A DNA stretch of 64,000 nt. Origin: Allobosea sp. (GTDB lineage: Bacteria > Pseudomonadota > Alphaproteobacteria > Rhizobiales > Beijerinckiaceae). This document shows positions 7,508 through 31,300 of the stretch, piece by piece (positions within the stretch are counted from its first letter, which is position 1; each line of letters begins with the position of its first letter). The notes under the pieces were generated by a model. It saw only the letters and a program-made list of their open reading frames with translations. It was not told the DNA's origin and made no database searches. The translations under genes and the position numbers were made by a program. The stretch is taken from assembly GCF_017308075.1 (NCBI RefSeq), contig NZ_JAFKFX010000039.1, positions 1 to 64,000 of the forward strand, read 5' to 3'.

Positions 7508-8440
7508 ATGACCGACGAGAATGACGACTCCGCCCCGGCGCCGCCGGCGGCGAAGCGCAAGCGTGCGCCGCGCGGCCGCAAAGCCGTGATCGGCAAGCTT
7601 TGGAAGGCGGCGCAGACGCAGCTCGAAGCGCATGAGGCACATCTCGCCGAATTGCCGGCCGGAACGGCCGCGAGCGAGGCCGATGCCAAGACGCTGGCGA
7701 CCTTGGCTCGCACCGTGCGCGAGCTGGTCGCGTTGGATAGTGCCGCTGCGGGGGAGGGAGGAAAGTCCGAGGATGTCCGCCATGGCGAGGCGGCTGGGCT
7801 GAAACAGCTCGAGGGCAAGGCGCTCTCCGCCGGTTCGGGGCCCGATGGCGGCTATCTCGCGCCCTCGACCGTCGAGAGCGAGATCCTGCGCCGCCTCTCC
7901 GCGGTCTCGCCGATCCGCGCGCTGGCGACGGTGCGCACGATCTCCTCGGGCACCTACAAGAAGGCGTTCTCGACCAGCGGTCCGGCTTCGGGCTGGGTGG
8001 CGGAGAGCGTCGCCCGGCCCCAGACCGGCACGCCCGCTCTGGCCGAGCTCTCCTTCCCGGCGATGGAGCTCTACGCCATGCCGGCGGCGACCCAGACCCT
8101 GCTCGACGACGCCATCGTCGATATCGACCAGTGGATCGCCGAGGAGGTCGAGAGCGCCTTCGCCGAGCAGGAGGGCGCGGCCTTCGTCAACGGCGACGGC
8201 GTCGACAAGCCCAGGGGCTTCCTTGCCTATCCCGCAGTCGCCGATGCCAGCTGGAGCTGGGGCAATATCGGCACGCTGAAGACCGGCGTCGCCGGCGCCT
8301 TCGCCGCCGCGAACCCGGCCGACATCCTGGTCGACCTCGTCTATGCGCTGAAGGCCGGCTACCGCCAGAACGCCAGCTTCGTGATGAACCGCAAGACGCA
8401 GGCCGCGGTGCGCAAGTTCAAGGACTCCACCGGTAAGTAG
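7508..8440 (+). CDS. HK97-type GTA major capsid protein, 5' part, with an unusual terminase-like N-terminus
   Basis: This 310-residue ORF contains an HK97-fold capsid from about residue 95 onwards (KALSAGSGPDGGYLAPSTVESE, SPIRALATVRTISS, ELSFPAMELYAMPAATQTLL, SWSWGNIGTLKTG, MNRKTQAAVRKFKDSTG). It closely follows the gene transfer agent capsid pattern (orfg5). The ORF stops within two codons of the attL core GG (8432-8433); the other 92 residues are at 31284-31559. Residues 1-85 do not look like a capsid delta domain. A basic start and the pattern KLWKAAQTQLEAHEAHL ... TLATLARTVRELVALD resemble small terminase subunits, suggesting an in-frame deletion fusion. The ATG at 7508 was chosen over the upstream ATG-less extension. 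Confidence 0.82.
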   Translation: MTDENDDSAPAPPAAKRKRAPRGRKAVIGKLWKAAQTQLEAHEAHLAELPAGTAASEADAKTLATLARTVRELVALDSAAAGEGGKSEDVRHGEAAGLKQLEGKALSAGSGPDGGYLAPSTVESEILRRLSAVSPIRALATVRTISSGTYKKAFSTSGPASGWVAESVARPQTGTPALAELSFPAMELYAMPAATQTLLDDAIVDIDQWIAEEVESAFAEQEGAAFVNGDGVDKPRGFLAYPAVADASWSWGNIGTLKTGVAGAFAAANPADILVDLVYALKAGYRQNASFVMNRKTQAAVRKFKDSTGK

Positions 8441-8455
8441 TATTTAAATACGCAC
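8412..8455. other. attL junction of the integrative element
   Basis: Capsid coding sequence runs to the core GG at 8432-8433. Element DNA follows (TAAGTAGTATTTAAAT), immediately closing the reading frame with TAG at 8438-8440. The A/T-rich sequence right of GG contrasts with the capsid gene. See attR: only GG is shared between the two junctions, as is typical of large serine recombinases. Confidence 0.75.
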
Positions 8456-8485
8456 TTTTTCTGTAGGCAAAACCAAAGCCAGAAC

Positions 8486-8510
8486 CGAAAAAGCCGCCTC
8501 GAAGGGCGGC
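8486..8510 (-). terminator. intrinsic terminator of the leftmost element gene
   Basis: Stem GCCGCC / GGCGGC (8493-8498 with 8505-8510), followed on the minus strand by TTTTT. It lies about 85 bp after the stop of the minus-strand ORF ending at 8594. Confidence 0.65.
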
Positions 8511-8593
8511 TCTATGGTGAAAACGGGTGATTGAAAACGCAGTTATCGTCAGTGCAAACGTCGGGCTTCGTGCTGTTGAAATGGGGCTTATGC

Positions 8594-9022
8594 TCAGCAC
8601 CAGTTGATCTTAAATTCGAACATATGGTCCTTATCCTTAAAACCCCAAAGCAATGCCATCTGGGGATTCTGGGAGTCTGCCCCGTGAACTGGGACTAATA
8701 ACCATTGGGCGTACCGTGGACCGTAACGCTCCTTTAGCCACATACGAATTTCACCTATGCGACCTTTTGCGATATCGGCGCTGGTTGCTATGGCGCAGGG
8801 GAAGCCGCCTTGGCGAAAATCCTCGGCGACGCCTGCAAGATCGTCCAACATTTCCGGGGCGACGCCTTTGCACAAGTAGACGCCTTGGTGTTTGTCGTCT
8901 GTGGTCTCGCTCATCACTTCATCTCTCCGCAAACTAACTTCGTAGCTTACTGGCTCCTTCGCCTCGCTCCTGACCTTCGAGGCGCGCTCCCAAACGTCCC
9001 TTTCTGTCTCGGCCAGCGTCAT
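8594..9022 (-). CDS. hypothetical protein behind a recombinase-type leader
   Basis: The 142-residue ORF has no family I recognise. Residues 9-32 (DVWERASKVRSEAKEPVSYEVSL) closely match the C-terminal tail of the element protein at 26353-27246 (VWVRASKVRGGAKEPVSYEVRL). The remainder (MSETTDDKHQGVYLCKG ... KDKDHMFEFKINWC) is a compact soluble domain. Two starts are plausible. The ATG at 9022 has AAGGAGG and sits in a leader shared with the small recombinase at 25420. The ATG at 8914 has GGAGAG 8 bp upstream and removes the borrowed tail. The arrangement suggests a rearrangement joined a leader, a gene tail and a second small gene. Confidence 0.6.
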   Translation of the reverse strand: MTLAETERDVWERASKVRSEAKEPVSYEVSLRRDEVMSETTDDKHQGVYLCKGVAPEMLDDLAGVAEDFRQGGFPCAIATSADIAKGRIGEIRMWLKERYGPRYAQWLLVPVHGADSQNPQMALLWGFKDKDHMFEFKINWC

Positions 9023-9158
9023 CCCGCCTCCTTCGCAAAACCCGTCTCTTCGACGGTCTCATGAGAAAGAGGTTTTGCAATCGAATTTTGCGACACCGTC
9101 GTCAGCAGAATCCCCGACGATCCCGACCCGGACGAGCGTCTCGCGGAAACGACCGTTT
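9022..9158 (-). repeat. inverted leader repeat, copy A
   Basis: Read on the minus strand, 9121 to 9022 aligns without gaps to 25321-25420 on the plus strand, about 78 of 100 positions. That includes 35 of 36 in 9086-9121. Both copies contain TCGCAAAA, 19 nt, the palindrome TCTCATGAGA (9057-9066 here), 16 nt, TTTTGCGA, 10 nt, ATG. Weaker similarity runs out to 9158. The two copies are in opposite orientation. Confidence 0.85.
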
Positions 9159-9271: not shown

Positions 9272-10798
9272 ATGACCGCCCCCGACAACCTCACGCAGCG
9301 ACTGGATTTCATGAAACTCGGCACGGATGCGCAGCAGCGGATTCGGGACGTGCAGAAGACGATCGTCGCAGCGTTGCCGGGCGCGCTCGATGCCTTTTAC
9401 GCGCAGATCAGAGCCTACCCCGAAACGATGGCCTTCTTCCGCGACGAGCAGCAGATTGCCAGCGCGCAGAACAGACAGGTCCTCCATTGGACTCGGATCG
9501 CCAAGGGGCAGTTCGATCAGGAGTATGTGGCAGCGGTAACGCGTGTCGGGCAGGTTCATGCCAGAATCGGGCTAGGGCCGCGATGGTATATTGGTGGGTA
9601 TGCGCTCCTGCTGTCGCAGATCATCGGCAAGGTACTGGAAGCGCGTTGGCCGAAGGGCGCGTTCGGGTCGAAGCTGCCGGGCGCGGACGAGCGTGCGGCT
9701 GAGATCAGCGCGATCGTCAAGGCCGCGCTGCTCGACATGGATTATGCCATCTCCGTCTACCTTGAGGTGTCCGAAGCCGCGCGGCTGAAGGCCGAGGCAG
9801 AGGCGCGCGCGATAGAGCAAGCAAAGGCTGCCGAGCGCGAAAAGGCAGTCGCTCTGGTGAGCGAGGGGATGGCCGCGCTGGCGAATGGTGATCTCAGCTT
9901 CCGCATGTCCCAGGACATCCCTGCCGAATACGCCCAGATTCGTGATCACTTCAACGATGCCATGGCGCGGCTCGGTGAGATGGTGGCGACGATCAAGGCC
10001 AGTTCAACTGCCATCGCTGACTCATCTCAGGAGATCAATGACGGCGCGGCCAACCTCTCCGCGCGCACAGAGGAGCAGGCGTCTGCGCTCGAAGAGACTG
10101 CGGCAACAACCGAACAACTTGCGGCTTCGGTAAAGACCTCTGCCCTGTCGTCGAGAGAATCCGTAGCCCTTGCAGACGAGGCGGCGAGCATTGCGCGCAC
10201 CGGAGGCAGCATTGTCAGGGATGCCGTCGAGGCAATGGTCCGCATCGAGGAGGCTTCGAAGAAGATATCGGAGATTACCGACGTTATCGACGGTATCGCC
10301 TTCCAGACGAATCTCCTGGCACTCAACGCGGCGGTGGAGGCGGCCCGCGCGGGCGAGGCAGGGCGAGGCTTTGCCGTGGTCGCTGCCGAAGTCCGTGCAC
10401 TGGCACAACGCTCGGCGGCGGCGGCCAAGGACATCACGAGCCTGATCGGTTCGTCCGACGCCGAGGTCACTGAGGGAGTTAAGCTTGTCCGGCTGGCTGG
10501 CGAAACGCTGGAGAAGATCGTTGACGCTTCGGTGCGCGTTTCCGGTACCGTCAAGGAGATCGCGTCCGCGACTGGTGAGCAGGCCAATGGGATCGAGGAG
10601 ATGAGCCAGACCGTCAGCCATATGGATGAGATAACCCAACGGAATGCTGCACTGGCCGAGCAAAGCGCGTCATCTGCCCGCACGCTGATGACGCAGATCG
10701 ACCGCTTGAGCCAACTGGTTTCTGCCTTCCGCACCGGGGACCAGCAACGTCACACGTCTCCGGTACTCACTCTGGTACGGGACAGCCGAACCGCCTAA
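9272..10798 (+). CDS. globin-coupled methyl-accepting chemotaxis protein (HemAT-like), first copy
   Basis: This 508-residue cytoplasmic receptor has no membrane segment. Residues about 10-170 form a sensor globin with the proximal haem histidine at H96 in RVGQVHARIGL, followed by [13 protein letters not shown]-like linker follows (about 200-250). The MCP signalling domain carries the conserved hairpin tip [19 protein letters not shown] and [18 protein letters not shown] near residues 345-385. Such receptors sense oxygen or other gases and signal to CheA. AGGA lies just before the ATG. A related receptor follows directly. That the ligand is O2 is inferred from the family. Confidence 0.9.
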   Translation: MTAPDNLTQRLDFMKLGTDAQQRIRDVQKTIVAALPGALDAFYAQIRAYPETMAFFRDEQQIASAQNRQVLHWTRIAKGQFDQEYVAAVTRVGQVHARIGLGPRWYIGGYALLLSQIIGKVLEARWPKGAFGSKLPGADERAAEISAIVKAALLDMDYAISVYLEVSEAARLKAEAEARAIEQAKAAEREKAVALVSEGMAALANGDLSFRMSQDIPAEYAQIRDHFNDAMARLGEMVATIKASSTAIADSSQEINDGAANLSARTEEQASALEETAATTEQLAASVKTSALSSRESVALADEAASIARTGGSIVRDAVEAMVRIEEASKKISEITDVIDGIAFQTNLLALNAAVEAARAGEAGRGFAVVAAEVRALAQRSAAAAKDITSLIGSSDAEVTEGVKLVRLAGETLEKIVDASVRVSGTVKEIASATGEQANGIEEMSQTVSHMDEITQRNAALAEQSASSARTLMTQIDRLSQLVSAFRTGDQQRHTSPVLTLVRDSRTA

Positions 10799-10888
10799 CG
10801 CGCGCGCGAACGCAGCAAACGATCCAGTTCCGAGGGGCGTATCGCTTTGAGATACCCTCCGCAGTACGTATTTTCTGAGCCGATCAAT

Positions 10889-12253
10889 ATGACCAATTCG
10901 AATGAGAGCCTGCCGATCAGCCACACAGTGGATCGGGAGACTCGGATGCGCTTCATGCGCATCGATGCCAGCACAAGCGAGACCCTCCGGCGCTTTTGGA
11001 CGATCGTCGAACCACGGCTTCCCGCCATTCTCGATGCCTTCTACGCCCACATCACGACGGAACCCGAGATTGCTACACTTCTTGGACGTGACATACCTCG
11101 CCTGAAACGGGTTCAGGGGGATCATTGGGCACGGCTGTTCGATGGACAGTTCGATGAAGCTTATATGCGGGGCGTGCAGACCATTGGCCGTGTCCATAAC
11201 CGGATCGGCCTGAAGCCCCGCTGGTATATCGGCGGCTACAATTTCGTCCTGGCGCAACTCTCCACTCTGGCTGTGCAATCCTACCGGTTCCGGCCAGCGA
11301 AACTGTCTGAGGCCCTGGTCGCGGTGAACGCCGCCGTCATGCTCGATATGGACCTCGCGATCTCAGTCTATCAGGACGAAATGCTCGCTGAGCGTCAAGC
11401 GCGGCAAGACAAGGTTACGGCGGCAATCAACAGCTTCAACGACGAGATGTCTCAGGCGCTGCGCATCGTGGACGTTTCGGCACATAATCTTGAGGAAACA
11501 GCCAACGGGCTTTCCATCAACGCAGAGGCGACATCGCGGCAATCAACCGCTGCGGCCAGCGCATCGCAAGAAGCATCGGCTGGCGCTCAAAGCGTTGCGG
11601 CAGCAGCCGATGAGCTTTTGGCAAGGGTTCGCGAGGTCGGTCACCAAGTCTCTCAGTCGGCTTCGATCGCGACGCGAGCGATGGCTCAGGCGAGTCAGTC
11701 TCAGACACTGATGAGCGGCCTCGTCGCGACCACTGGCGAAATTGATGGCGTGGTGAAGCTCATCGCGGACATCGCATCGCAAACCAATCTTCTCGCTCTC
11801 AATGCGACGATCGAGGCTGCTCGTGCGGGAGAGGCCGGAAGGGGCTTTGCCGTCGTGGCGACAGAGGTCAAGATTCTCGCAACCCAGACAGCGACGGCAA
11901 CGGATTCGATTGGTCAGAGGATCGCCGCGATCCAGTCCGCAACGCAGCAGTCCGTTGCCGCCATTTCCGGGATCGGCACGACTATCGAGGAGATCGACGC
12001 GATCGCGCAAACCATCGCGGCTTCGGTCGGTCGCCAGGAAGTACGGATCGGGGACATTTCCAAGAGCATTCAGGAATCGGCCCGTGGAGCGCATGACGTG
12101 TCGGCCAATGTGACCGGCGTTAGCATGGTTGCTGCCGAGACGGGACGAGCCGCCACCTCGGTACTGAATTCGGCCAAGGACCTTTCGAGCCAAGCGGATC
12201 GATTGCGCGATTGCGTCAGTACCTTCTTCAGGGCCATTCGGGAGGCCGCGTGA
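10889..12253 (+). CDS. globin-coupled methyl-accepting chemotaxis protein, second copy
   Basis: A 454-residue soluble receptor with the same layout as its upstream neighbour: an N-terminal globin (haem His H103 in [10 protein letters not shown], then [11 protein letters not shown]) and a C-terminal MCP domain with tip [30 protein letters not shown]. It lacks the long HAMP-like linker of the first copy, and the sequences differ widely outside the motifs, so this is an old paralogue rather than a recent duplicate. The gap between the genes is about 90 bp. I placed the start at ATG 10889; a TTG at 10847 preceded by GAGGGG is an alternative adding 14 residues. Confidence 0.88.
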
Positions 12254-12333
12254 AGCCTGATCTCCATCGTGGTCCGCATGTCGTCACCATCGACTTCAAC
12301 GGCCCTTCACGATCAAGCTATGATGGAAGCAAC

Positions 12334-12930
12334 ATGTTCTCGACGCCCGTACCTGCTACCGTGGCTTTTAGGTCTGCGATCCCGGAAGACTGCGCCGACC
12401 TCGCTCTCCTCGCTGATATGGCGACGCGACGCCTCACGTCGTTTCTATGGGGTCAGGTGGCCTCGCCCGGCCAGTCATCGTTCGAGGTCGGCCGGAACAT
12501 CATCCGTAACGATACCAGCCACTACATGCACCAGAAGAACTGGCGCGTTGCCGTAGATCGGGGGGTGCTCATCGGAGCGTTGAACGGCTATGTGATCCCC
12601 GAGCCGACCGGATCGCCGCCCGCCTCAGAGGTGATTAAGCCTTTGAACGCGTTGAAGGATGTCGCGGCCGGGACGTGGTATATTGCAGTGGCGTCGATCT
12701 ACCCGGAACATCAGGGCAAGGGCTTAGGCAAATCGCTTCTCTCGGAAGCAGAGAACATCGCCCGGTCAGCAGGCAAAGATCGCCTTACACTCATGGTCGG
12801 CAGCTTCAACGCCAGGGCCTACGGCCTCTATGCGAAGAGCGGCTTCACGGAATGGGAAAGGCGACCCTTCCACCCGTTTCCGGGATCGGATGAGCCCGGA
12901 GAGTGGATTCTGATGGTCAAGGATTTGTAG
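12334..12930 (+). CDS. GNAT-family N-acetyltransferase
   Basis: A 198-residue acetyltransferase. Motif A with the acetyl-CoA pyrophosphate loop is YIAVASIYPEHQGKGLGKSLL (residues about 110-130, Q-x-x-G-x-G). The C-terminal part carries NARAYGLYAKSGFTEWERRPF, the usual N-x-A-x-x-L/Y-Y-x-x-x-G-F pattern. The N-terminal RSAIPEDCADLALLADMA is typical of the fold. The substrate is unknown. The start at 12334 has GGAAG 4 bp upstream; the reading frame is open further back and overlaps the preceding chemoreceptor, so an earlier start cannot be excluded. Confidence 0.8.
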   Translation: MFSTPVPATVAFRSAIPEDCADLALLADMATRRLTSFLWGQVASPGQSSFEVGRNIIRNDTSHYMHQKNWRVAVDRGVLIGALNGYVIPEPTGSPPASEVIKPLNALKDVAAGTWYIAVASIYPEHQGKGLGKSLLSEAENIARSAGKDRLTLMVGSFNARAYGLYAKSGFTEWERRPFHPFPGSDEPGEWILMVKDL

Positions 12931-14415: not shown

Positions 14416-14952
14416 TCATACAATCATCGGCATCGCCTCGATCATCCTGCTGCCGACGAGCGTCACCATGGGGACCGCGACGGTCACCGGCTCGATCGCA
14501 ATCTTGAGCGGCTGATATCGCCCGGCCGCGTCCGCTTTCGGAACGGTCGAGACCGATCGTGCCGTCCGGTAGACCTCAGTTCGGACGTTCCCGATTTCGA
14601 GAGGTCGCAAACTAACTTCTCCAAGCCGTCTCAGGGCGGAAATAAACTCGGTCGGCGCGATGGAGCCGAGTTCGACGATGCCGCGCAGGTCCACACCGTT
14701 CCACCAGCCCCAAAGGCCGACGCCGCGCCACCATAGCGATTGGCGTCGCTGATGGGCCACGGAGTTATGGACGGACTTTCGCCAGTGGCTGAATTGGCGC
14801 GGACTCGAAGCCGCGACTACGATCGTCACCGCATGGAGGTGTCTCGGCTCGCAGGCAAGAATGCGGCGCGCGATGGTGAGCGAATATCGCCACGCGCAGG
14901 CGGCGCAGTCTATCGAAGAGCAGCGACGGGCGGATGTGCACCGAGGAGGCAT
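14416..14952 (-). CDS. hypothetical protein
   Basis: A 178-residue ORF. The C-terminal half (LRGIVELGSIAPTEFISALRRLGE ... EPVTVAVPMVTLVGSRMIEAMPM) reads like an ordinary alpha/beta protein. The Cys/Arg-rich N-terminus, with no ribosome site, may not be translated, so the real start could be internal. No motif or family is recognised. The start lies beside a hairpin at 14957-14990 shared with the divergent ORF at 14995. Confidence 0.42.
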   Translation of the reverse strand: MPPRCTSARRCSSIDCAACAWRYSLTIARRILACEPRHLHAVTIVVAASSPRQFSHWRKSVHNSVAHQRRQSLWWRGVGLWGWWNGVDLRGIVELGSIAPTEFISALRRLGEVSLRPLEIGNVRTEVYRTARSVSTVPKADAAGRYQPLKIAIEPVTVAVPMVTLVGSRMIEAMPMIV

Positions 14953-14994: not shown

Positions 14995-15285
14995 ATGACA
15001 CCCGCACTCATCCAATCATTCGGCCAAATCGACGCGACCTTTACGGCCAAAAAGCAGCTTCAGCACCCCTACGAGGTCGAACAGAAGGGCATGACTCGTC
15101 TGAACCTCGGCGAGGACTTGTTCCAAGCGATGAATGTTGAGCGTCGCCTATGGCTCGACGAGAACTGCACAGCGCCGGTAAGTTTCGATCAACTCCCGCG
15201 AGGAGCCGGGCAGAAGTATCTGTTCGCAGACCCTGACGAAGCCTTCCACTTCAAACTGCGTTTCGGGGCACGGGTATTTCCTTGA
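14995..15285 (+). CDS. small hypothetical protein
   Basis: A 96-residue protein with no signal peptide and no recognised family. Balanced charged/hydrophobic composition and aromatic-rich C-terminus (LFADPDEAFHFKLRFGARVF) suggest a folded domain. It overlaps the convergent methyltransferase gene by 35 bp at the stop codons. There is no clear ribosome site. Confidence 0.5.
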   Translation: MTPALIQSFGQIDATFTAKKQLQHPYEVEQKGMTRLNLGEDLFQAMNVERRLWLDENCTAPVSFDQLPRGAGQKYLFADPDEAFHFKLRFGARVFP

Positions 15286-16963
15286 TCCCAAGATCGCTGA
15301 GCACCCCCTCACCACGCGGCATGATCTTCCCGATCCTGCCTCGCGCGATTTCAGCATACTCAGGTACCATCTCGCAGCCGACGAAGCTGAAGTCCTCTTG
15401 GACTGCCGCAACCCCGCTCGAACCCGAGCCCATGAACGGATCGAATACCGTGCCGCCAGGAGGTGTCACAAGTCTGACCAGATACTTCATCAATTCTGTC
15501 GGCTTGACGGTTGGATGGTTGTTTCCGGGTCCTCGGTCGGCCTTCGACGCCTTGGCTGCGTAGAAGTAACGTCCCCACGTCTCCTCGATGTCGGTGAGGA
15601 TCACGTTGGCGGGCCACCGACCATTTTCCGCCCTCGGGGCTTCGACGCATTGCTTCAAGCTCGTCGCTGGCCGAATTCCGGCCGCCACGTTTGCTTTCGT
15701 GTAGCTGGCAATGCCTGTGCTGCCCGGCCGGGAGGTTGGTCGGTCCTTTCGTCCGACATCCACGAGGCCGGTCGGTGGTAGGCCACGGCCAGCCAGTGCT
15801 ACGGAGGCTCCCACTTTCCTGCCCGCCCGACCTTGCTCGATCCACTCGCTGGTGGGGATTCGGCAAGCATCGATGTTCATCGCCCCGGTACCGAACATCA
15901 CGACGTTGGACGCCACGCTCGTTTCCGCGATTGGCTTGCGCGCAATGATGATCGGCTCGAAGGCGGGCTTGAGCGCGGTGCCTCGGCCTTTGTGGCGGCC
16001 TTTCAAATTGTGCGACTTCGGAAAACCTGACCCGAACAACCAGATGATCTGGTCACGTATCTCGAAGCCCGCATTCTCGACCGCGACGGCGAGGCGATGG
16101 AAGGTTCTGGGTCCGCCAAACGCGATGAGGTAGGCACCCGGCTTCAGCACCGCATAGCCCGCACGCCACGTCTCGACATCGAACGCAACCCCGCCACCGT
16201 CCCATTCTTGCCCAAGGAAACCGGTGGCCATTGCCCTATAGGGGTTGTCGTTGCCCGGCTCACCGCCGATCAGCGGGGCCGCTTGTTTCCTGCCGTAGCG
16301 CCGCGAGATCGAGACGAGATGATAGGGCGGATCGGTCACGATCGCGTCGAACATCAGGCCCTGCTGAGCGAAATCCCGCATGTGCTCGCGGCAGTCGCCC
16401 AGGAGAACTCGGGCGGTTGGCTCGGGGAGCGGAGGCGGTGTAGTCTCGATCGCGACATCCACCAGGGACATCGACAAGCCGAGCGCATCCATGGCCGCGA
16501 CCAGGGTTGCGACATGGCCTTCGCTGCGCTCGATCCGAACGATGGCCGGTTTCGAGATGCTAGCCAGAGCGCACAGCTTCTCCTGCGACAAGCCTACGCC
16601 CTTGCGGGACTGAGCAATCCAGCGGCCGAGTTCCACATCCACGGGTTGGTCGGCGAGCCGATGTTCCAACGTTTCCAGCACCTTCATCAGAGCAGCCAGG
16701 GAGCCTCGCCCTGCCTCCAGACCGACGAGGGTCATGCGGCCGATACCAGCCTTCTCTGCGAGGTCGCGTTGCGTGAGATGGCGGTGCCGACGAGCGCGGA
16801 GAAGCTCTGCTCCAAGCGCGGCGGCGGGTTCGGAAAAGTTACGAATCTTGATCTCGCATCGTGGGTTCGACAGGCTGAACAACCATGACGCTGGTATCGG
16901 AATCGTAACCGAGCGAACGATCGAAGCCGTATTGACGTAACCTCTGCCTGACCGGTCTGACAA
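15251..16963 (-). CDS. fusion of two XRE-type HTH domains to a DNA methyltransferase
   Basis: A 570-residue protein. Residues about 48-98 (LGAELLRARRHRHLTQRDLAEKAG) and 112-165 (IAQSRKGVGLSQEKLCALASIS) are two Cro/C1-like helix-turn-helix domains. The rest is an amino-methyltransferase of the beta order. The catalytic DPPY is at 211-214 and the AdoMet motif DPFMGSGSSG is at 508-517 near the end, with HPTVKPTELMKYLVRL just before it. DPPY indicates N6-adenine or N4-cytosine methylation. No restriction enzyme is adjacent, so it is an orphan-type methylase. It is third in an operon with DUF2945 and DUF488 genes. The TTG at 16963 is the furthest start; another TTG at 16882 is possible. Confidence 0.85.
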   Translation of the reverse strand: MSDRSGRGYVNTASIVRSVTIPIPASWLFSLSNPRCEIKIRNFSEPAAALGAELLRARRHRHLTQRDLAEKAGIGRMTLVGLEAGRGSLAALMKVLETLEHRLADQPVDVELGRWIAQSRKGVGLSQEKLCALASISKPAIVRIERSEGHVATLVAAMDALGLSMSLVDVAIETTPPPLPEPTARVLLGDCREHMRDFAQQGLMFDAIVTDPPYHLVSISRRYGRKQAAPLIGGEPGNDNPYRAMATGFLGQEWDGGGVAFDVETWRAGYAVLKPGAYLIAFGGPRTFHRLAVAVENAGFEIRDQIIWLFGSGFPKSHNLKGRHKGRGTALKPAFEPIIIARKPIAETSVASNVVMFGTGAMNIDACRIPTSEWIEQGRAGRKVGASVALAGRGLPPTGLVDVGRKDRPTSRPGSTGIASYTKANVAAGIRPATSLKQCVEAPRAENGRWPANVILTDIEETWGRYFYAAKASKADRGPGNNHPTVKPTELMKYLVRLVTPPGGTVFDPFMGSGSSGVAAVQEDFSFVGCEMVPEYAEIARGRIGKIMPRGEGVLSDLGIKEIPVPRNAV

Positions 16964-16969
16964 CGCGGT

Positions 16970-17542
16970 TCATGGGGGCGGTGGCGGCATGGGCCTTTCG
17001 CCTGGGGAACGCTCCGCCGGATAGATTACCTTCCCCTCCGGTGTCCGCTGCGCGCCCGGCGTCGGCGTGCCATGTTCGATCTGACCCGGACCCATCAGGT
17101 GATCGACCGCGTGGCCGTTCAGGAGCAGATAATCGGTGATGATCCGACGATGGCATCGCCACCAGACCGCCTCCGCACACATCAATGCCAAGCGACGCGC
17201 CTCGCCGAGGCGCAGCAATTCCTCGAAGGCATCGCGAAGCTCATCGCTCAGCGCATAGTCGGCATAGTTGTGAAAACTCTGTTCGCGCCACAACGCGTTG
17301 GTTTGCGCGTCCACGTCTCTTTGCTTTCGCCTCCGTCCGCCAAGCTCCGGGATATGGCGATAACCGATCTGGAAGCGCTCCAGGTCACTCGGCAGCCGAT
17401 GGATGTTGAAGGCCGGATTGCTTCTCGATCGCGGAAACGCGCGGACATCGATCAGCAGATCGACACCGGCCTCCCTCAGTATCGTCACGAACTCGGTAAG
17501 GGAGCGGTTCGAATGGCCGATGGTGGTAAACTGCGCTACCAT
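16970..17542 (-). CDS. DUF488 family protein
   Basis: A 190-residue DUF488 protein. N-terminal TIGHSNRSLTEFVTILREAGVDLLIDVRAFPRSR matches the family's GHS-x-R and DVR-x-x-P signature. Near residue 125 is LMCAEAVWWRCHRRIITDYL, the conserved C-x-E-x-x-x-x-CHR box (first Cys in LMCAE). The Pro-rich C-terminal 40 residues are low complexity. The function is unknown; the conserved Cys/His/Arg set suggests an enzyme, possibly acting on nucleic acid. Its ATG overlaps the DUF2945 stop as TGATG, and the methyltransferase follows at 7 bp. Confidence 0.85.
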   Translation of the reverse strand: MVAQFTTIGHSNRSLTEFVTILREAGVDLLIDVRAFPRSRSNPAFNIHRLPSDLERFQIGYRHIPELGGRRRKQRDVDAQTNALWREQSFHNYADYALSDELRDAFEELLRLGEARRLALMCAEAVWWRCHRRIITDYLLLNGHAVDHLMGPGQIEHGTPTPGAQRTPEGKVIYPAERSPGERPMPPPPP

Positions 17543-18740: not shown

Positions 18741-18771
18741 ACTGCCCCGTTTGCGTTGCGTGGGGCTGGAT

Positions 18772-19893
18772 ATGACGAGGGCTACCGCCGCTGTTCTGGC
18801 TTTGCTGGCCTGCGGCATCAGTGGATTTGCGAAAGCTAACAACTGCACGGACGACAATCTCGGCACGTCCCGTGTTCTTGAGGTCTCGGTCTCGACAGGG
18901 CCGGTCGGTGACATCTCCTACCGAGGTCGGCTCCCCTTGGCGCGCGGGGAGGTTGTCTTGACCTTTGACGACGGCCCGATGCCACATCGCACAACCGCCG
19001 TCCTCGATGCCCTGAAAGCCGAATGCGTCCGGGCTACCTTCTTTGTCGTCGGCACAATGGCCCGGCAGTTTCCAAGTATTCTGCGCCGTGTAGCCGCCGA
19101 TGGGCATACTGTCGCCAGCCACTCTTGGTCGCACGGCTATCTAAACCGCATTCGCAGTGAGCAGCGCCGCCGAGATGAAATCAACGGTGGCCTCCTCGCC
19201 GCGAGTGCCGCGCTCGGCACGGCACACCCGGCCCTGTCGCCGTTCTTTCGATTTCCAGGGCTGGGCCGGACGCGCGCCCTGGAGGACTACGTCGCCGAAC
19301 GAAACCTGATTTCGATGAGTGCGGATATCGTCGGTGATGACTGGAAACCGATCGGCTCCGAGCAGGTGCTCCATCGCGTCATGCGGCAACTCAACGCGAA
19401 GGGTCGCGGCATCATTCTGCTTCACGACATCCAGAAGCGGACGGTCGATATGGTTCCGGCCTTGCTGCAAGCGCTGAAGGGCGGTGGCTACAAGGTCGTG
19501 CACATCGTACCGTCAGTTCGAGACACCCGTACTGCCCTTGCGCTGGCAGAGCCGCCCGCCAACACGCGCATCAGAACAGCCTTGGCGAACATGAGAAGCG
19601 AGGCGAGCGCGTTCGCCGAGCTTTCCGCGCCGACAAAACCTGCGCCGTTCCAGCTTGCTGTCAACCGGCCGCCGGAATCTTTTCGTCCCGAAACTGGCGC
19701 GACGGAAAGGGCCGAAGTCGCCTCGCCTCGCGTCGCCCAAACTGTCGCGGCAACGCCTTCCGCGACGCGACCAGTTATGTCGAACCCAGCGCTATCAATG
19801 CCAACGATTCAGGGTACGGCAAGTAACGGATTTGTCGTACTTGCCGCAACGCAGGTCATTCAAAGCTTCGAGGAGCTTGGATTGCGACGATAG
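18772..19893 (+). CDS. exported polysaccharide deacetylase (NodB homology domain)
   Basis: A 373-residue protein with an N-terminal hydrophobic signal (AAVLALLACGISGFAKA). The NodB carbohydrate esterase 4 domain spans residues about 58-240. Motif 1 is TFDDGP (64-69, with both catalytic Asp), motif 2 is H117 and H121 (ASHSWSH, zinc), motif 3 is RFPG near 153, and motif 5 is ILLHDI near 212. A long Ala/Pro/Thr-rich tail follows. It should deacetylate N-acetylated glycans such as peptidoglycan or chitin-like polymers in the periplasm. ATG 18772 was chosen over a TTG seven codons upstream. Confidence 0.87.
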   Translation: MTRATAAVLALLACGISGFAKANNCTDDNLGTSRVLEVSVSTGPVGDISYRGRLPLARGEVVLTFDDGPMPHRTTAVLDALKAECVRATFFVVGTMARQFPSILRRVAADGHTVASHSWSHGYLNRIRSEQRRRDEINGGLLAASAALGTAHPALSPFFRFPGLGRTRALEDYVAERNLISMSADIVGDDWKPIGSEQVLHRVMRQLNAKGRGIILLHDIQKRTVDMVPALLQALKGGGYKVVHIVPSVRDTRTALALAEPPANTRIRTALANMRSEASAFAELSAPTKPAPFQLAVNRPPESFRPETGATERAEVASPRVAQTVAATPSATRPVMSNPALSMPTIQGTASNGFVVLAATQVIQSFEELGLRR

Positions 19894-21427: not shown

Positions 21428-21905
21428 TCAAGTGCGATGACGCGCGATCATGTTGAAGACGTTCTCAGCTTCCTTGAAACGCCTCTCCGCCTCCTTTTTC
21501 CGATGCGCTGGATGAAGATCGGGATGGAGCGCTGATCGGTACGATTTGCGGGGCCGCCTGGACCACCCATTCCGGCGCGCCCGGACTGAGCCCGACCCGA
21601 CCAAAGAGCGCAGCCTTCGGATCAGGCTCCGACGCAGCAGCGGTCGAACGAAGCCGCTGGAGTTCGGTCCGCAGCGTTTCGATCTCGGTCTCCGCCGCCA
21701 CCACCATGGCTTCCAGGGCAGCGACGTAGTTTAAGTCGATCACCTTGCGATCTTGTCTCGGCGGCGCGGGATGGCGCTCTATCGAAATCGCGAGGAACCA
21801 TGCCGCCACGAGCGCGCCGACGATCAGCACGAAATAGGCGAATAGGGTCGCCCAAGGCAGCGACATCGCCCAGCCCAGGGCGGTGAGGATCAGGAAGGCC
21901 CGCAT
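21428..21905 (-). pseudogene. J-domain membrane protein with a frameshift
   Basis: Translation from ATG 21905 gives a hydrophobic N-terminus (one or two membrane spans), a coiled segment (AALEAMVVAAETEIETLRTELQRLRS) and VGLSPGAPEWVVQA, then out-of-frame sequence to a stop at 21465. Removing one base from the four-G run at 21550-21553 (plus strand) joins it to ARKSYRSALHPDLHPAHRKKE, then AERRFKEAENVFNMIARHR, ending at 21428. This is a J-domain with its HPD signature. Intact relatives have this membrane-plus-short-C-terminal-J layout. The gene therefore appears to have lost its J-domain by a 1-bp insertion, unless the base is a sequencing error. Confidence 0.72.
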
Positions 21906-21908
21906 GGG

Positions 21909-22013
21909 TCAGGCCGCGTCTCGGCCATGGATTTCCTCTTCCAGGTCATTCAAGAGCGCATCCAGATCGGCATCGTCGTCGCCGTAGTCGGCCGCTTCGC
22001 GTTGCCGGTCCTA
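21909..22013 (-). other. possible severed acidic C-terminus of the 22011-23105 protein
   Basis: After the TAG at 22011-22013 the same frame stays open for 33 codons to a TGA at 21909-21911. It encodes an acidic, helix-prone peptide (DRQREAADYGDDDADLDALL, then NDLEEEIHGRDAA). That TGA lies 4 bp from the ATG of the next gene (21905), the usual spacing for coupling, which suggests this tail was once translated. The TAG may be a nonsense mutation. Confidence 0.4.
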
Positions 22014-23105
22014 GACAAAAGCCGTGGTGTGATCGACCAATCGGTGCAGCGCCTGCTGTTCAGCCGAGGGATGCGCTACGGACTGGTAGAAGATGCCGTA
22101 CTGGTCCAGCTTCCGTTGAACCCAGGCGGCCGTTTCGGGGCTCACGCGCCTGTTACGAGGTGCCCGGAGGTCCTCGCAAACCCAATGCGTCTGATCGCCG
22201 CTCGTCAGGCGCAGCAATTCAAGAACGGCCTGTTCACCCGGTTTCACGACCTCGTAGATCAGTCTTTCCCCGAGGAAAGTGAACGATTTTCGTTGGGCAG
22301 CGCAGTTTCTGAGGCGGCGGCCCAGATCATCCATTTCCCTTCCAAGGCGGAGGCGTAGGTGAGGATCGCTCGCCGGAATGGGAGCCACAAACGGAAGGCG
22401 GACCTGCCGGGCCATCCAGCCTTCCGCCCATTCAGTCATTTTGCAGCCTCGGGTGCCGACCGCCAATTGGTCGAGGCTCTCCCGGATCAGTGCGGGCGTC
22501 GCGTCACACAGGTCCACGATCATCTCGGCGAAGCGGTTCAGTGCGGCAACTTCTCTCTGATGACACCGCTCCAGAACGCTGCGGTGCAGGAGCCGCTCGT
22601 CGAGACTAGCGGCGACGGTGACGTGCTCAGGACGAATTTGACCGGGAAGCTGCCCGAGGACTTTCGCGCGCCTTCGATGCTCGGGGCGGGAGAACAGTTC
22701 GAAGGCCAGTCGATAAGTTTCCGGGCCGTACAGGGGCTGGCTCCCGAATCGTTCGAACAGGCCCAGCAGGCCGTCCGGGCAGGTCCCGAAGACGCATTCG
22801 ATCGTCGTTCGGGGCGTCATCACGGCCAACGCCCGCGCAATCCGCGCATCTGGGTCGAGGCCATGGAAGTCGGCCAGTACATCGGCCGCACGCACCTCGA
22901 TCTGAGCCAGGAACGCCTCAGGGCGGACGAGATCAATCTCGGCGGCGGCGGCGGCGGCGAAGAGCACCTGCCTATTGAGGTCGCGTGCCTTGAGAATGTG
23001 GAGGATTGTATGTTCGAGGCTGGCTTCAAGCTGCGCAGCGAAGTTCAGCGCGTAGCCACGGAATTCCCGAACCCGAAAGGGCCGCTGCTCGATCTGTTGT
23101 CCCAT
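22011..23105 (-). CDS. hypothetical protein, possibly PcfJ-like at the C-terminus
   Basis: A 364-residue soluble protein. Residues about 250-340 (LRLGREMDDLGRRLRNCA, then FLGERLIYEVVKPGEQAVLELL, WVCEDLRAPRNRRVSPETAAWVQ) recall the R-x-x-R/H-NC, Y, A-x-x-E and G-x-x-N sequence of PcfJ-like domains found on mobile elements, but the match is weak. The N-terminal two thirds are mostly helical with no motif. The ATG has GGAG six bases upstream. The frame continues past its TAG stop into an acidic tail, suggesting the protein may be truncated. It lies just upstream of the frameshifted J-domain gene. Confidence 0.6.
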   Translation of the reverse strand: MGQQIEQRPFRVREFRGYALNFAAQLEASLEHTILHILKARDLNRQVLFAAAAAAEIDLVRPEAFLAQIEVRAADVLADFHGLDPDARIARALAVMTPRTTIECVFGTCPDGLLGLFERFGSQPLYGPETYRLAFELFSRPEHRRRAKVLGQLPGQIRPEHVTVAASLDERLLHRSVLERCHQREVAALNRFAEMIVDLCDATPALIRESLDQLAVGTRGCKMTEWAEGWMARQVRLPFVAPIPASDPHLRLRLGREMDDLGRRLRNCAAQRKSFTFLGERLIYEVVKPGEQAVLELLRLTSGDQTHWVCEDLRAPRNRRVSPETAAWVQRKLDQYGIFYQSVAHPSAEQQALHRLVDHTTAFV

Positions 23106-25283: not shown

Positions 25284-25420
25284 AAACGGTCGTTTCCGCG
25301 ACGCTGGTGATGGCGGCGTGATCGTCGGGGATTCTGCTGACGACGGTCTCGCAAAAACTGCTTGCAGAACTGGCTTCTCATGAGAGCCTGCCTTCGACGA
25401 GTTTTGCGAAGGAGAGGCGA
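25284..25420 (+). repeat. inverted leader repeat, copy B, upstream of the small serine recombinase
   Basis: This is the partner of copy A at 9022-9158, in opposite orientation. 25321-25356 matches A at 35 of 36 bases. TCGCAAAA (25349-25356), the palindrome TCTCATGAGA (25376-25385) and TTTTGCGA (25402-25409) have exactly the spacing of copy A and end at the recombinase ATG. It is probably the recombination site and/or operator of the recombinase. Confidence 0.85.
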
Positions 25421-25986
25421 TGAAGCTGGGGTATGCGAGGAAGTCCACTTTCGATCAGCAGCACACGTTGCAGATCGATGCCCTGAAGGCGGATGGCTGC
25501 GAGCGCATCTTCATCGAGACGGCGAGTGGCCTGAAGGCTGACCGTCCCGAACTTCGCCAACTCCTCGACCATGCCCGCCCAGGCGATGTGATCGTCGTGT
25601 ACAGCCTGTCGAGGTTGGCCCGCTCGATCCGCCACCTGCTCGATGTCGCCGAAGACCTGCGGACGCGTGACATCGGCCTGAAGAGCATCACCGAGGGGTT
25701 CGATACGACGACTGTTTCCGGCCGCTTCATGTTCAACGTGCTCGGAGCGCTGGGCCAGATGGAGGTCGAGCTTCTTCGGGAGCGTACCCAGGCCGGTCTT
25801 CGGGCCGCCCGTGCACGCGGAAGAGTCGGCGGACGCCCGAAGTCGCTCGACACGGTGAAGCTCACCGTGGTGCGCACGCTGATTGCCGAGGGCACGCTGA
25901 CCATGGCGGAGATCGCCGAGCATGTGCAGGTCGCGCCCTCGACGATCTATCGCGCCGTGAAGGGCGGGCGGAGCGCGTTGGCCTGA
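25420..25986 (+). CDS. small serine recombinase (resolvase/DNA invertase family)
   Basis: A 188-residue recombinase. The catalytic N-terminal domain starts KLGYARKSTFDQQ with the nucleophile Ser at residue 9 (Y-x-R-x-S). It continues with ELRQLLDHARPGDVIVVYSLSRLARSIRHLL, containing the conserved S-R-x-x-R active-site set, and GRFMFNVLGALGQMEVELLRERTQAGL, the E-helix dimer interface. The C-terminus is a Hin-like HTH (TMAEIAEHVQVAPSTIYRAV). Length and order match Hin/Gin/Tn3-resolvase relatives. A strong AAGGAGAGG precedes the ATG. The matching inverted leader 16.2 kb away suggests it acts, or once acted, as an invertase. Confidence 0.9.
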   Translation: MKLGYARKSTFDQQHTLQIDALKADGCERIFIETASGLKADRPELRQLLDHARPGDVIVVYSLSRLARSIRHLLDVAEDLRTRDIGLKSITEGFDTTTVSGRFMFNVLGALGQMEVELLRERTQAGLRAARARGRVGGRPKSLDTVKLTVVRTLIAEGTLTMAEIAEHVQVAPSTIYRAVKGGRSALA

Positions 25987-27918: not shown

Positions 27919-29379
27919 ATGGATATTATTGTATACGAAGGCGCTCCTGGGAGTCGCAAAACGCTCACCTTACTCGATCAGTTCGTATCCGTGCCAGGGC
28001 GCTACCTCGTTGCTTTCCCCCGCACGCCACTGATCGACGAACAGGCCGATTATTGTCGTCAGAAGGCGAAGGAAGTTGGTACGCGGCCTTTCATCGTGTC
28101 TTACCACTCCAAGCAGCCCAGCCATCGCAGGCAGGTCGGTCGCCAGATCGAAAAGGCGCTGAAGGCGAATGCAGGTCTGAGCCATGTCGTGATCATGATC
28201 ACTCATTCGGCTTTGCTCGACCTCGATCCAAGACTGCTCGCGGGCTGGCATACCGGGATCGACGAGAATCTCGACGGTAGTGTTGTTTCCGGCACCTTTC
28301 GGGCCAGTGCATCGTGGAGCGTGCTTGAACGCCATTACCGGCTGGACCCGCTCCCCGGCGGTCGCGTCTGGCAGGCGCTTCCGCGTGATGGCGCACCCCG
28401 GCTAACCCGCCATCAAATCGCTGCCGAAGGTTCGAACGATCTGACGAGGTTCCATACGTACGCCTCTAATCCGCATCGTGCCGTCTTCGTTGACGTAGGC
28501 GATTGGCAGGACGCACAAATTGCTCGGCGCGAAGTCCGCTGGTGGTCGATCTGGACGCCCCTGGTGCTCGACCAGTGCGCTTCGGTGACGTTCACGGCTG
28601 CGGGCTATTTCGAGAGTCTTCCATGCCGGGCTGCTAAATGGCTTTCGGGTGGAGCAATCAACTACGCCCCGATCGATTTGGGGGTTGGGAAACCACGCGC
28701 GAGCCCGCGTGTAAGGATTCACTTCTATACGGCTCGCCACGTGGGTTCGACCGCATGGTGGGAAACAGACGATGGCAACCGCTGCCTCGTACAGGTCTCG
28801 CGACATCAAGAGACAATCGGCGGGCCGGGCTACTGGTCCTGCAACGAGGATATCCGGTCGGTTTTTCGCAACCGCTTTCCTGGTACCCTATGCCAGCCGA
28901 AGCAGGCGGGGACCAACAGCCTAATCCACCACACCTCGTGCATGTTCATCTACTCGTCGAAGCCCCAGGCCGATGACGCTTCGATCATCGACCTGCTCGG
29001 CCTCAATCGTGACGACATCCGCCGCGCCCGCGAGTTCGAGGATATCCGCCAGTTCGTGATGAGAGGTGCGATCAGGCGGCCTGATTACGCCGGGAGCTAC
29101 GACATCTACCTGTACGATTTCGCTCAGGCCGAAGACCTCGAAATCTATCTGCGCGGGATCGGCATCACCGATGTGGAAACAATGCCCGTGTATGAGGCCA
29201 ACATCATGGAAATAGTTCGTCCCAGCGCGGCGGCGTCAGCGAAGAAGACACCGCTGAGTCGCGAGGAGAAGCGCAAGCGGAACACGGCCAGCCAGCGTGA
29301 GAGGAGGGCGGAAATCAAAGCGAAGGAAGAAGCGAATGGCATTGTGCGGAGGAGGGGGCGGCCAAAGAACGGCGCGTGA
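27919..29379 (+). CDS. helicase-like P-loop protein with an AT-hook-like tail
   Basis: A 486-residue protein. It begins with a Walker A-type loop EGAPGSRKTLT (G8-T15, an Arg in place of the usual residue before Lys). A region near residues 90-120 follows (VVIMITHSALLDLDPRLLAG ... HTGIDENLDG) that could hold a Walker B/DE box. The layout resembles superfamily 1/2 helicase-like proteins of plasmids and phages, though later motifs are not clear. The last 50 residues are highly charged and end RRRGRPKNGA, containing the RGRP core of an AT-hook. A role in element DNA replication or maintenance is my inference. Confidence 0.62.
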   Translation: MDIIVYEGAPGSRKTLTLLDQFVSVPGRYLVAFPRTPLIDEQADYCRQKAKEVGTRPFIVSYHSKQPSHRRQVGRQIEKALKANAGLSHVVIMITHSALLDLDPRLLAGWHTGIDENLDGSVVSGTFRASASWSVLERHYRLDPLPGGRVWQALPRDGAPRLTRHQIAAEGSNDLTRFHTYASNPHRAVFVDVGDWQDAQIARREVRWWSIWTPLVLDQCASVTFTAAGYFESLPCRAAKWLSGGAINYAPIDLGVGKPRASPRVRIHFYTARHVGSTAWWETDDGNRCLVQVSRHQETIGGPGYWSCNEDIRSVFRNRFPGTLCQPKQAGTNSLIHHTSCMFIYSSKPQADDASIIDLLGLNRDDIRRAREFEDIRQFVMRGAIRRPDYAGSYDIYLYDFAQAEDLEIYLRGIGITDVETMPVYEANIMEIVRPSAAASAKKTPLSREEKRKRNTASQRERRAEIKAKEEANGIVRRRGRPKNGA

Positions 29380-29495
29380 CGGAATGGGCTGCGTACCGAA
29401 CTTGAGTTGCACCGTCACGTCGAGCGGCAGCGGCTAGATCGTCCGACGCGACCGTTCTCGATTCCCAGGCGCTGGCAATGGCCGTAATGTTGCCC

Positions 29496-31229
29496 TCAGG
29501 CTTGAAGCCCTTCGAATGTCGCTTCAACGCTTGGATCACGCTCGCGAGGCGCTGTGAACTTCGTGATCCGCAATCCGTTGACCTTGTCCTCGAACGCGTA
29601 GAAAACGCTTTCATCGCGCATGATAACCAAGTCGGTCCCGTCTTTCGAGAACTCGATCCGGTCAATCACTTCCTTGATCTTGAGGTTAAGCTTGGCCCGC
29701 ACAGCGTAGCGCTGAGCGGCCTTGCTAGTTTTCTCAGCCTCATTGTCACCGTCCACCGGCTCCAGGGCCGCCATCGTTGCCCGAAGCTCTTTGAGGGCCG
29801 TCTTGCGGTCTTCCGGTGACTGGCTGGACGCGATGCTTGCCAGCTTCGACCGCTTGGTCTCCAGGCTCGATACCAACCTGGCCTTCTCCGCTTCAAGTTC
29901 AGAGACCATTTGAACAGCAACAGACGATTGGGTCGAAAGGAAGTTGGTGATCACCGTCCTGATCTGATCGTCGAGAGATTCGACCCTCAGATTTTCGGTG
30001 GCAATGTCCCGTTGGAGAGCGGCGGCTTCGTCCGAGCGACGATCGACCAGTTCAACTTCCGATACGAAGTCCAGGACGGCGTTCTCGATCACGAGGTAAC
30101 GGGGTGAGCGGCTGTTTCCGCACACGCCCTCGCTCTTCCCGGCACAACGAAGCCGGGTGTACCTCGCGAGCGTGCGATGCTCTCGCTGAACCTTGATGTG
30201 CATCGGGTTGCCGCAGTGCGAGCAGATCGTGGTGTCCTTCAAAATGTTCGCGAAGTCCGCACCCTTCCGACCCTGTCCCATGCTGCCGCGACGCTTCCGG
30301 GACTGGATTGCGTCGTTCGCAGCCTGCCAAAGCTCAGGGGTGACGATCTCCTTGTAGTAGTTCGGCAAAACTCCTGCGGGCGTCATGATGCGCTTGCCGT
30401 TCTCATCGTAGCTCGTGATCGTCGGGCGGTACTCTCCGAGCACTGTCTTCCGGGTCAGGATGTTCAATATCGACGTGGCGTTCCAGTGATGAGAGCCCTT
30501 GGACTTCGACCCGATCGGCTTCCTCTGCTCACCGAACGGCGCGATGCCACGACGCTTCAACTCCTGCGCGATCTTGTACGAGGACAGGCCGTCGCGGGCC
30601 ATTTCGAATATGTCATTGACGATCTTGGCCACGTCGTCATTGACCTTGAAGACCTTCTTCCCGTCCTTGTCCTTCTCGATCCTCAGCCAAGTCGGGATAC
30701 GCCCGGCAACGATCTTCCCGGTCTGGCGTCCGTTCTCGTACGCTTCGGCCACGCGCTCGCTCTTGATCCGGCTTTCTTCGTGGCCGCGCATCATCGAGTT
30801 GAGCAACTGGTTCGCGCGCCACTGTTCGCGGTTCACCGTTTCCAGCGTGTAGGGGAGGCCGTCGAAAACCGAGTGGATCGTGACGCCCGCGCTCAAGATG
30901 TCCTTCATCGTCTGGAGAGCGTCGAAGATGGGCTGGCGCGAGAGACGGTCAAGGCTTTCGATGATCAGGTGTTCACCCGACTTGATCACGCCGCGACGAA
31001 TGTTCTCCAGGATCGTCGCTAACTGGCCAGAGCGACGGTTGCGGCCACGGAACGCGGAGACGCCACGGTCTTCGTACTCCCGGACGACCACGAGCCCCTT
31101 CTCCTTCAGGTAGCGAAGCGTGCCCTTGTACTGCCGATCGAGACCATCACCGGCAAGCTGAGAAGCGCTCGAAACGCGACGGTACAAATGCGAGAGGTTC
31201 GAAGTCGGGACGGGAGCGTGGACGTTCAT
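29496..31229 (-). CDS. large serine recombinase (site-specific integrase of the element)
   Basis: A 577-residue integrase. The catalytic domain starts SHLYRRVSSASQ with nucleophile S20 (Y-x-R-V-S), followed by YEDRGVSAFRGRNRRSGQLATIL and SLDRLSRQ, the conserved R/SR set. The recombinase domain covers about residues 180-300. A zinc beta-ribbon follows (TICSHCGNPMH ... RLRCAGKSEGVCGN), and a coiled coil (about 430-520) is typical of the phiC31/TP901-1 class. It lies at the right end, reading away from the junction, with its ATG 52 bp from the attR core. It should catalyse attP x attB insertion; excision normally needs a directionality factor, not identified here. Confidence 0.95.
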   Translation of the reverse strand: MNVHAPVPTSNLSHLYRRVSSASQLAGDGLDRQYKGTLRYLKEKGLVVVREYEDRGVSAFRGRNRRSGQLATILENIRRGVIKSGEHLIIESLDRLSRQPIFDALQTMKDILSAGVTIHSVFDGLPYTLETVNREQWRANQLLNSMMRGHEESRIKSERVAEAYENGRQTGKIVAGRIPTWLRIEKDKDGKKVFKVNDDVAKIVNDIFEMARDGLSSYKIAQELKRRGIAPFGEQRKPIGSKSKGSHHWNATSILNILTRKTVLGEYRPTITSYDENGKRIMTPAGVLPNYYKEIVTPELWQAANDAIQSRKRRGSMGQGRKGADFANILKDTTICSHCGNPMHIKVQREHRTLARYTRLRCAGKSEGVCGNSRSPRYLVIENAVLDFVSEVELVDRRSDEAAALQRDIATENLRVESLDDQIRTVITNFLSTQSSVAVQMVSELEAEKARLVSSLETKRSKLASIASSQSPEDRKTALKELRATMAALEPVDGDNEAEKTSKAAQRYAVRAKLNLKIKEVIDRIEFSKDGTDLVIMRDESVFYAFEDKVNGLRITKFTAPRERDPSVEATFEGLQA

Positions 31230-31261
31230 GGCCTGGGCTATGTCGTGCGAATCGGCACCTG

Positions 31262-31300
31262 TCAAATTGACGACTACAAGGGCCAGTATCTCTGGCAGCC
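31262..31300. other. attR junction of the integrative element
   Basis: Element DNA (ACGACTACAAG) meets capsid DNA at the core GG (31281-31282), after which the capsid frame resumes (GGC CAG TAT CTC TGG). The right element end and the left element end are dyad-related around GG (ACTAC and GTAGT each 3 nt from the core). Confidence 0.75.

Follow-up and report, generated by a model that had tools for sequence, protein, structure and literature searches.

The interrupted capsid gene

The 64,000-nucleotide stretch analyzed here (the window) comes from a member of the genus Bosea and lies on contig 13, 125.5 kb long, of a 62-contig, 5.55-Mb draft genome (G000). Homology identifies its host locus as an RcGTA-type gene transfer agent (GTA) cluster, and the major capsid gene of this cluster is split by a 22.85-kb island of lower GC content (0.53-0.63 in 1-kb steps within the island, 0.65-0.73 beyond it). 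Direct reading of the sequence places the junctions at two GG dinucleotides, 8432-8433 and 31281-31282, both internal to the contig. The left junction reads ...GACTCCACC-GG-TAAGTAGT... and the right junction ...GACTACAAG-GG-CCAGTATCTC..., and GG is all that the two have in common. The capsid open reading frame (ORF) meets a stop at 8440, directly past the first GG, and its last 92 residues resume at the second, behind a large serine recombinase gene. A first-pass annotation of the window had described both this arrangement and the sharing of GG alone, and direct reading confirmed the two points. Along the forward strand, the core of the left attachment site (attL; 8432-8433, plus strand) is followed by the integrated island (8434-31280; 22,847 bp between the cores), the core of the right attachment site (attR; 31281-31282, plus strand) and the 3' part of the capsid gene (31283-31562, plus strand; 92 residues and the stop codon). 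The cores were assigned by direct reading and alignment with relatives, the island by its GC profile and alignments with relatives, and the 3' part by sequence and a capsid protein search.

Empty sites and a second insertion

Joined at GG, the flanks of the island can be aligned over 921-943 bp to 45 loci with an intact capsid gene, representing 33 distinct genomes. GG is present at the junction in all 45, no alignment is gapped within 30 bp of it, and the uninterrupted genes of relatives thus match the join that had been predicted. Shorter alignments (e.g., a contig-end copy in genome G005) and L077, which duplicates the G063 locus, were excluded from this count. At the protein level, 52 of 67 Bosea genomes contain an uninterrupted capsid orthologue and two are split at the GG site; one further genome (G005) has the gene in two pieces on two contigs, broken elsewhere, and in the other 12 the orthologue is absent or reduced to a remnant. 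The conserved capsid segment at the site encodes KFKDSTGQYLWQPP in many Bosea genomes, and in Rcc01687, the R. capsulatus capsid, the aligned position is occupied by a recognisable KMKDADGRFLW.

The second split capsid gene is found in Bosea sp. CRIB-10 (G003), again interrupted at this GG (contig C43, 15289-15290 and 74729-74730). The first-pass annotation had proposed searching for the same recombinase beside other GTA capsid genes, and CRIB-10 is what such a search returned: the same GG with a different island. This island is approximately 59.4 kb long, lies in the opposite orientation and carries cargo unlike that of the window, and its recombinase gene, located beside attL, encodes a protein 41-43% identical to the window recombinase. 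The empty site is present in close relatives of both strains (G063 for the window strain, G014 and G028 for CRIB-10). Because two unlike elements share one dinucleotide, chance insertion is untenable, and because the second, different element sits at the same GG, the capsid gene can be regarded as the true bacterial attachment site (attB) of this type of recombinase. The unlikeness of the elements, together with the empty sites in close relatives, suggests that the two insertions were independent events.

The cargo of the CRIB-10 island, scanned for 10 of approximately 41 called genes, includes genes for a ClpB-like ATPase, an FtsH-like protease, YfdX, a Y-family polymerase and helicase-nuclease proteins. 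The first three lie with a gene for an S30AE/sigma-like protein at approximately 34870-44865 of C43 (L075), a set that we take to be reminiscent of transmissible stress-tolerance loci. At the attL of this island (L071:10290-10310), the arm derived from the attachment site of the element (attP) continues the cut capsid as GIYLYN, which is similar to the native GQYLWQ; at the protein level, this arm partly mimics attB. The CRIB-10 GTA retains open ORFs for the terminase (506 aa), the portal (390 aa) and the protease (244 aa), the tail genes compared are open too, and excision might restore the GTA in this strain.

Several other incomplete capsid matches were rejected as further insertions. In G079 the match starts near the split, and the GTA there has decayed to a remnant; the 19 kb read gave no recombinase match. 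The remnant (L104:7000-9250) retains a capsid C-terminus with its stop, two trypsin-like genes and a g6 fragment. The G695 capsid is truncated at residue 351, where the contig ends. The two pieces in G005 (residues 1-216 and 218-413, the second from base 3 of its contig) are divided at another site, and the partial matches in G806 (break at residues 225-228) and G750 (residues 25-186) also end at other places. An order-level capsid search gave a match in 267 of 397 genomes; the matches listed are the stronger ones, and the search therefore provides no test for split genes.

The recombinase and its attachment sites

The large serine recombinase (577 aa; 29496-31229, minus strand) lies at the right end of the island, with its start codon 51 bases inside the attR core and the gene reading inward. 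Its translation contains Resolvase, Recombinase and zinc-ribbon (Zn_ribbon_recom) domains (Pfam, E 1.3e-17, 2.2e-15 and 9.5e-7, respectively), and the same three domains occur in the CRIB-10 recombinase. The N-terminal YRRVS motif and S20 are identical in the two aligned proteins, and we take this conserved N-terminal serine to have the catalytic role. Matches in the PDB include the YokA recombinase (E 4.9e-7) and the phiC31 integrase (E 1.7e-5).

A 2-bp GG core is common to attL, attR and the empty site (in G000, in G003 and at 45 of 45 empty loci), with arms that are otherwise dissimilar. Joining the ends of the island gives the predicted attP, ACTAC-aag-GG-taa-GTAGT. The first-pass annotation had read this as a symmetric core; the sequence is as claimed, but the symmetry is weak when taken alone. 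In the window 6 of 12 arm positions pair (p ~0.055 versus random bases), in the CRIB-10 element 7 of 12 pair (p ~0.014), and four positions are paired in both elements (p ~0.005), a level of symmetry around the core that is suggestive, not strong.

At a threshold of E 1e-60, an order-level search with the recombinase matched one of 397 genomes, that of the window itself. A recombinase-alignment scan of named genomes and viral contigs, which relied on short peptide patterns, returned CRIB-10 and apparently the same locus in IMG/VR (41% identity each), and all other matches were at most 32% identical. The only close relative found is therefore at the same capsid site, whereas the first-pass annotation had raised the prospect of relatives at unrelated attB sites. 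For recombinases of other genomes with 27-34% identity (L009-L020), the 1.5 kb flanking each side, as far as the contig extended, contained no capsid match. As a candidate free attP in the viral contigs, one exact 18-bp match to the window attP was taken as chance; the contig concerned has four ORFs of at least 150 aa in 6.5 kb, none of them recombinase-like by eye. The CRIB-10 attP had no exact match in the viral contigs.

The host GTA cluster and its deletion

The assignment of the host locus to the RcGTA type of the Alphaproteobacteria is based on a capsid homologous to Rcc01687 (E 1.7e-100 for the G014 orthologue), a GTA_TIM protein and GTA-gp10. Beyond the capsid gene, domain scans place the rest of the cluster at 33067-42383 (plus strand), with genes for a head-tail connector, head completion, tail tube, GTA-gp10, tape measure, DUF2460, hub and GTA_TIM tail protein; the domains matched were GTA_TIM, Phage_TAC_11, Phage_tail_2 and DUF2460, and the RcGTA tape model matched below its cut-off. 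Unlike RcGTA-type clusters, the window cluster has a split capsid gene and is without most of the terminase, the portal and the protease.

The 5' part of the split ORF (7478-8433, plus strand; Pfam Phage_capsid, E 8.5e-58) is itself composite. Residues 1-112 match a separate upstream gene of the relatives and residues 96-320 match their capsid, beginning at approximately residue 100 of the 413-aa G014 capsid. The upstream gene, called g1 here by position only (it has no family match), lies approximately 4 kb upstream in close relatives, at the start of the large terminase gene terL. Pfam matches and DNA alignments place the g1 N-terminus (to approximately 7775) in frame with the capsid across a deletion junction with a 3-bp overlap, ATG, at 7773-7775. 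In DNA alignments, the deletion measures 3,978 bp relative to G063 and 4,071 bp relative to G014, and in G014, from which the gene identities were taken, the missing stretch contains most of the large terminase, the portal, the prohead protease and the 5' end of the capsid gene. The window GTA has none of the head genes (terminase, portal, protease, capsid) complete, and of terL only a 5' fragment remains. A search of the window genome with the G014 terminase protein found only this fragment at the GTA locus. The missing stretch, searched as DNA (portal and protease were not searched as proteins), returned its two edges and short matches, the longest of 228 bp at 66% identity and approximately 1 kb from a prophage capsid.

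Joining at GG does give the single in-frame ORF of 401 residues that had been proposed as a restored capsid, but the product is a g1-capsid fusion in which the first approximately 89 residues are g1 and approximately 100 capsid N-terminal residues are missing. Excision cannot restore the GTA in the window strain because the head-gene stretch is deleted. The suggestion that excision could reactivate the capsid and the GTA therefore fails for this strain, in which no orthologous copy of the deleted terL portion, portal, protease or capsid N-terminus was found by these searches, and a reactivation switch was rejected.

The remaining GTA genes that were compared (a set without the GTA_TIM gene) have no internal stops. 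Pairwise ratios of nonsynonymous to synonymous substitution rates (dN/dS) between the window and G063 were 0.04-0.31 over ten GTA-cluster pieces; those for g6, g10, g12 and the capsid 3' part (13 changes) were above the G003-G014 and G014-G028 pairs and well below 1. Because these ratios are well below 1, the damage would be recent relative to the split from G063, or the tail genes would still be constrained for another reason. A trypsin-like protease gene (31587-32462, minus strand), with homologues in G063, G014, G028 and G003, lies between the capsid gene and the next GTA gene. The window genome also contains four further HK97-type capsid genes (contigs C2, C37, C47 and C53), presumably of prophages, three of which match the G014 GTA capsid at 38-45% identity.

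Contents of the island

The left portion of the island contains two tandem protoglobin-MCP chemotaxis sensors (9272-12253, plus strand, with genes at 9272-10798 and 10847-12253) and a GNAT acetyltransferase (12211-12930, plus strand), all identified with Pfam; there are direct repeats between the two sensor genes. Domain scans identified a helix-turn-helix plus DNA methyltransferase gene (15251-16963) and a DUF488 gene (16970-17542), which together occupy 15251-17542 on the minus strand, a polysaccharide deacetylase (18751-19893, plus strand) and, along with PHROGs scans, a small serine recombinase of the invertase/resolvase type (25420-25986, plus strand). Four further genes are shared with other Bosea genomes: gene A (364 aa; 22011-23105, minus strand) and gene B (146 aa; 21465-21905, minus strand), both recognized by comparison with the CRIB-10 island and other Bosea; gene C (178 aa; 14416-14952, minus strand), matched in the CRIB-10 island and four other Bosea; and gene D (486 aa, phrog_2467; 27919-29379, plus strand), 64-67% identical in G003 and G089. 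Structure models for genes A and D were of low confidence (mean predicted local distance difference test scores of 57.9 and 42.9, respectively), and a PDB profile search with gene D gave no match. Inverted repeats at 9013-9125/25317-25429 (113 nt, 79%) and 8936-8995/27151-27210 (60 nt, 85%) link the left end of the island to the surroundings of the small invertase/resolvase gene at 25420, and the left copy resembles a collapsed inverted duplicate. The 16 kb between the repeats might be flipped by the invertase.

Genes A, B, C and D and both the small and the large serine recombinase are common to the window and CRIB-10 islands. Gene A was matched at 47% identity or more in 6 of 67 Bosea genomes (window included), with two weak matches besides, and in 3 of 297 genomes sampled from the order at E 1e-20, again including the window; homologues of the window DNA methyltransferase adjoin it in G011 and G012. 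The A-B-C regions of G011, G089, G071 and G012 had no capsid or large-recombinase match in the 20 kb read, and that of G012 has a tyrosine integrase gene nearby. Because no large recombinase was matched in these regions and one has a tyrosine integrase gene nearby, genes A-C seem to travel with different integrases, with the capsid-targeting recombinase as one module. No phage structural or packaging genes were found among the island ORFs scanned (the larger ORFs, 12 with Pfam and 10 with PHROGs), and no relaxase or conjugation genes among the 12 scanned with Pfam, where the shared genes A-D have no assigned function. A plasmid DNA search with the island gave matches in four records, covering 1-2%.

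Origin of the interruption

Very probably, the interruption arose when a site-specific integrative island was inserted by its large serine recombinase into an attB in the GTA capsid gene, at GG. A circular form of the island carrying attP would be paired by the recombinase with attB inside the conserved RcGTA-type capsid gene, and conservative exchange at the 2-bp core would integrate it. Integration would split the capsid gene and, because the capsid C-terminus is lost, would be expected to abolish GTA particles. A related island would have taken the same route in CRIB-10, and in the window strain the loss would be permanent because approximately 4 kb of head genes is also deleted. The first-pass annotation had placed attB inside the capsid gene with a GG core, a proposal now strengthened by the precise empty sites in relatives and by the second element at the same GG.

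Several observations weigh against this explanation. The recombinase lies at opposite ends of the two elements relative to the capsid reading direction, and the attP cores are consequently oppositely oriented relative to the recombinase gene. GG is not the uniquely best center of symmetry, as another center scores higher in the window attP and one ties in that of CRIB-10, and no recombination directionality factor was identified. Only two capsid insertions at the GG site are known, both in one genus, and in a class-wide sample of 385 genomes, 90 of which had a capsid match (window included), no other match ended near the site. In addition, the junction evidence is the assembled sequence, and the independence of the insertions relies on unlike elements and on empty sites in close relatives of each.

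There are several potential alternatives. The 62-contig draft could in principle contain an assembly artefact, or the island could have entered by transposition or homologous recombination instead of site-specific recombination; this is barely credible, however, as the junctions lie inside a 125.5-kb contig, the ends share nothing beyond GG, and the assembly of another strain has a different element at the same dinucleotide. The scarless 2-bp junctions would also suit a regulated switch, in which precise excision under some condition rebuilds the capsid gene and restarts the GTA in the manner of the skin element or the comK prophages. The open terminase, portal, protease and compared tail genes of CRIB-10, where excision could rebuild the gene, and the low dN/dS and absence of internal stops in the compared genes of the window are consistent with such a switch. 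It is nevertheless quite improbable: the window strain has lost terL (apart from the 5' fragment), the portal, the protease and the capsid N-terminus, and the different cargo and orientation of the two islands are what separate mobile elements, and not a conserved switch, would be expected to show. A regulated switch is unsupported in the window strain and possible only for CRIB-10.

Within the explanation by site-specific integration, it may also be asked why the capsid gene is the target. On balance it is probable that the gene is a neutral landing site, conserved and dispensable, whose disruption disables the GTA without selective value. A conserved KFKDxxGxYLWQP-like segment is encoded at the target, 12 of 67 Bosea genomes lack a capsid orthologue or keep just a remnant (decayed in G079), the window GTA is also broken by a deletion, and the A-C regions of four other genomes have no capsid match in 20 kb, one being near a tyrosine integrase. 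Against neutrality, two recombinases as divergent as 41-43% identity keep the same target, and the dN/dS of the window GTA genes relative to G063 suggests that the GTA was functional until recently. An adaptive shut-off arising from intragenomic conflict, in which the inserting elements gain because the host no longer lyses for the GTA, is possible though rather unlikely. Two different elements do sit at the same codon, mobile elements are described as disrupting competence genes in many species (PMC4774983 and PMC11472951), and a commentary suggests that the chromosomal-curing model might apply to GTAs (PMC4795794). However, only 2 of 67 genomes carry such an insertion, and the conserved target explains its recurrence without selection. 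Moreover, capsid loss would end donation and not reception, leaving curing by incoming particles unblocked, and for this reason any benefit would come from avoiding lysis and not from blocking curing. The wider proposal of a Bosea island family with recombinases that target the GTA capsid gene, in which integration disarms the GTA and carriers gain by not lysing, is accordingly offered only tentatively.

Relation to known systems

The skin element and the comK prophages are phage-regulatory switches. The window element resembles them in splitting a coding sequence that precise excision would rebuild and differs in showing no evidence of programmed excision and in a target cluster that is additionally deleted. 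The likeness drawn in the first-pass annotation therefore holds for anatomy and not for switching, as the rebuilt ORF would be a g1-capsid fusion in a terminase-less cluster. The recombinase is like those of phiC31 and SPbeta (YokA) in its Resolvase, Recombinase and zinc-ribbon domains, 2-bp core and dissimilar attB and attP, while the island differs from large-serine-recombinase phages in its target and in having no phage structural genes among the ORFs scanned. Two S. suis phage records named _comEC, whose names are the only indication of insertion in comEC, have an integrase approximately 27% identical to that of the window.

The nearest parallel is provided by elements that disrupt competence genes (comK, comYC, comFA and comM), at orthologous positions, according to PMC4774983. 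Like those elements, the islands described here are site-specific, interrupt a conserved DNA-exchange gene at orthologous positions in different hosts and have related integrases; unlike them, they target a GTA structural gene, concerned with DNA export in particles, and not DNA uptake. If the islands are the GTA counterpart of these elements, they would disarm the GTA. The wording "gene transfer agent" is absent from PMC4774983 and PMC11472951. GTAs are widespread in Alphaproteobacteria, as stated in PMC9836097; for the terms searched, no passage on interrupted GTA genes was found in that paper, PMC8224337 or PMC9662315, which deal with GTAs or with prophages of GTA-bearing bacteria. Integration into a GTA gene was not reported in any of the titles and abstracts listed from the open-access literature, a body that mostly excludes subscription papers.

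Implications for GTA biology

Why GTAs persist, and which forces oppose them, are unsettled questions. Two different islands at one GTA capsid codon offer a well-defined example, accessible to experiment, of a GTA being disabled by mobile elements, along with a serine recombinase that has a defined target in a conserved gene. With CRIB-10 and its empty-site relatives, it should be possible to measure whether losing the GTA is costly or beneficial. In these bacteria, a conserved gene-exchange machine offers the islands a place to insert and is broken in the process.

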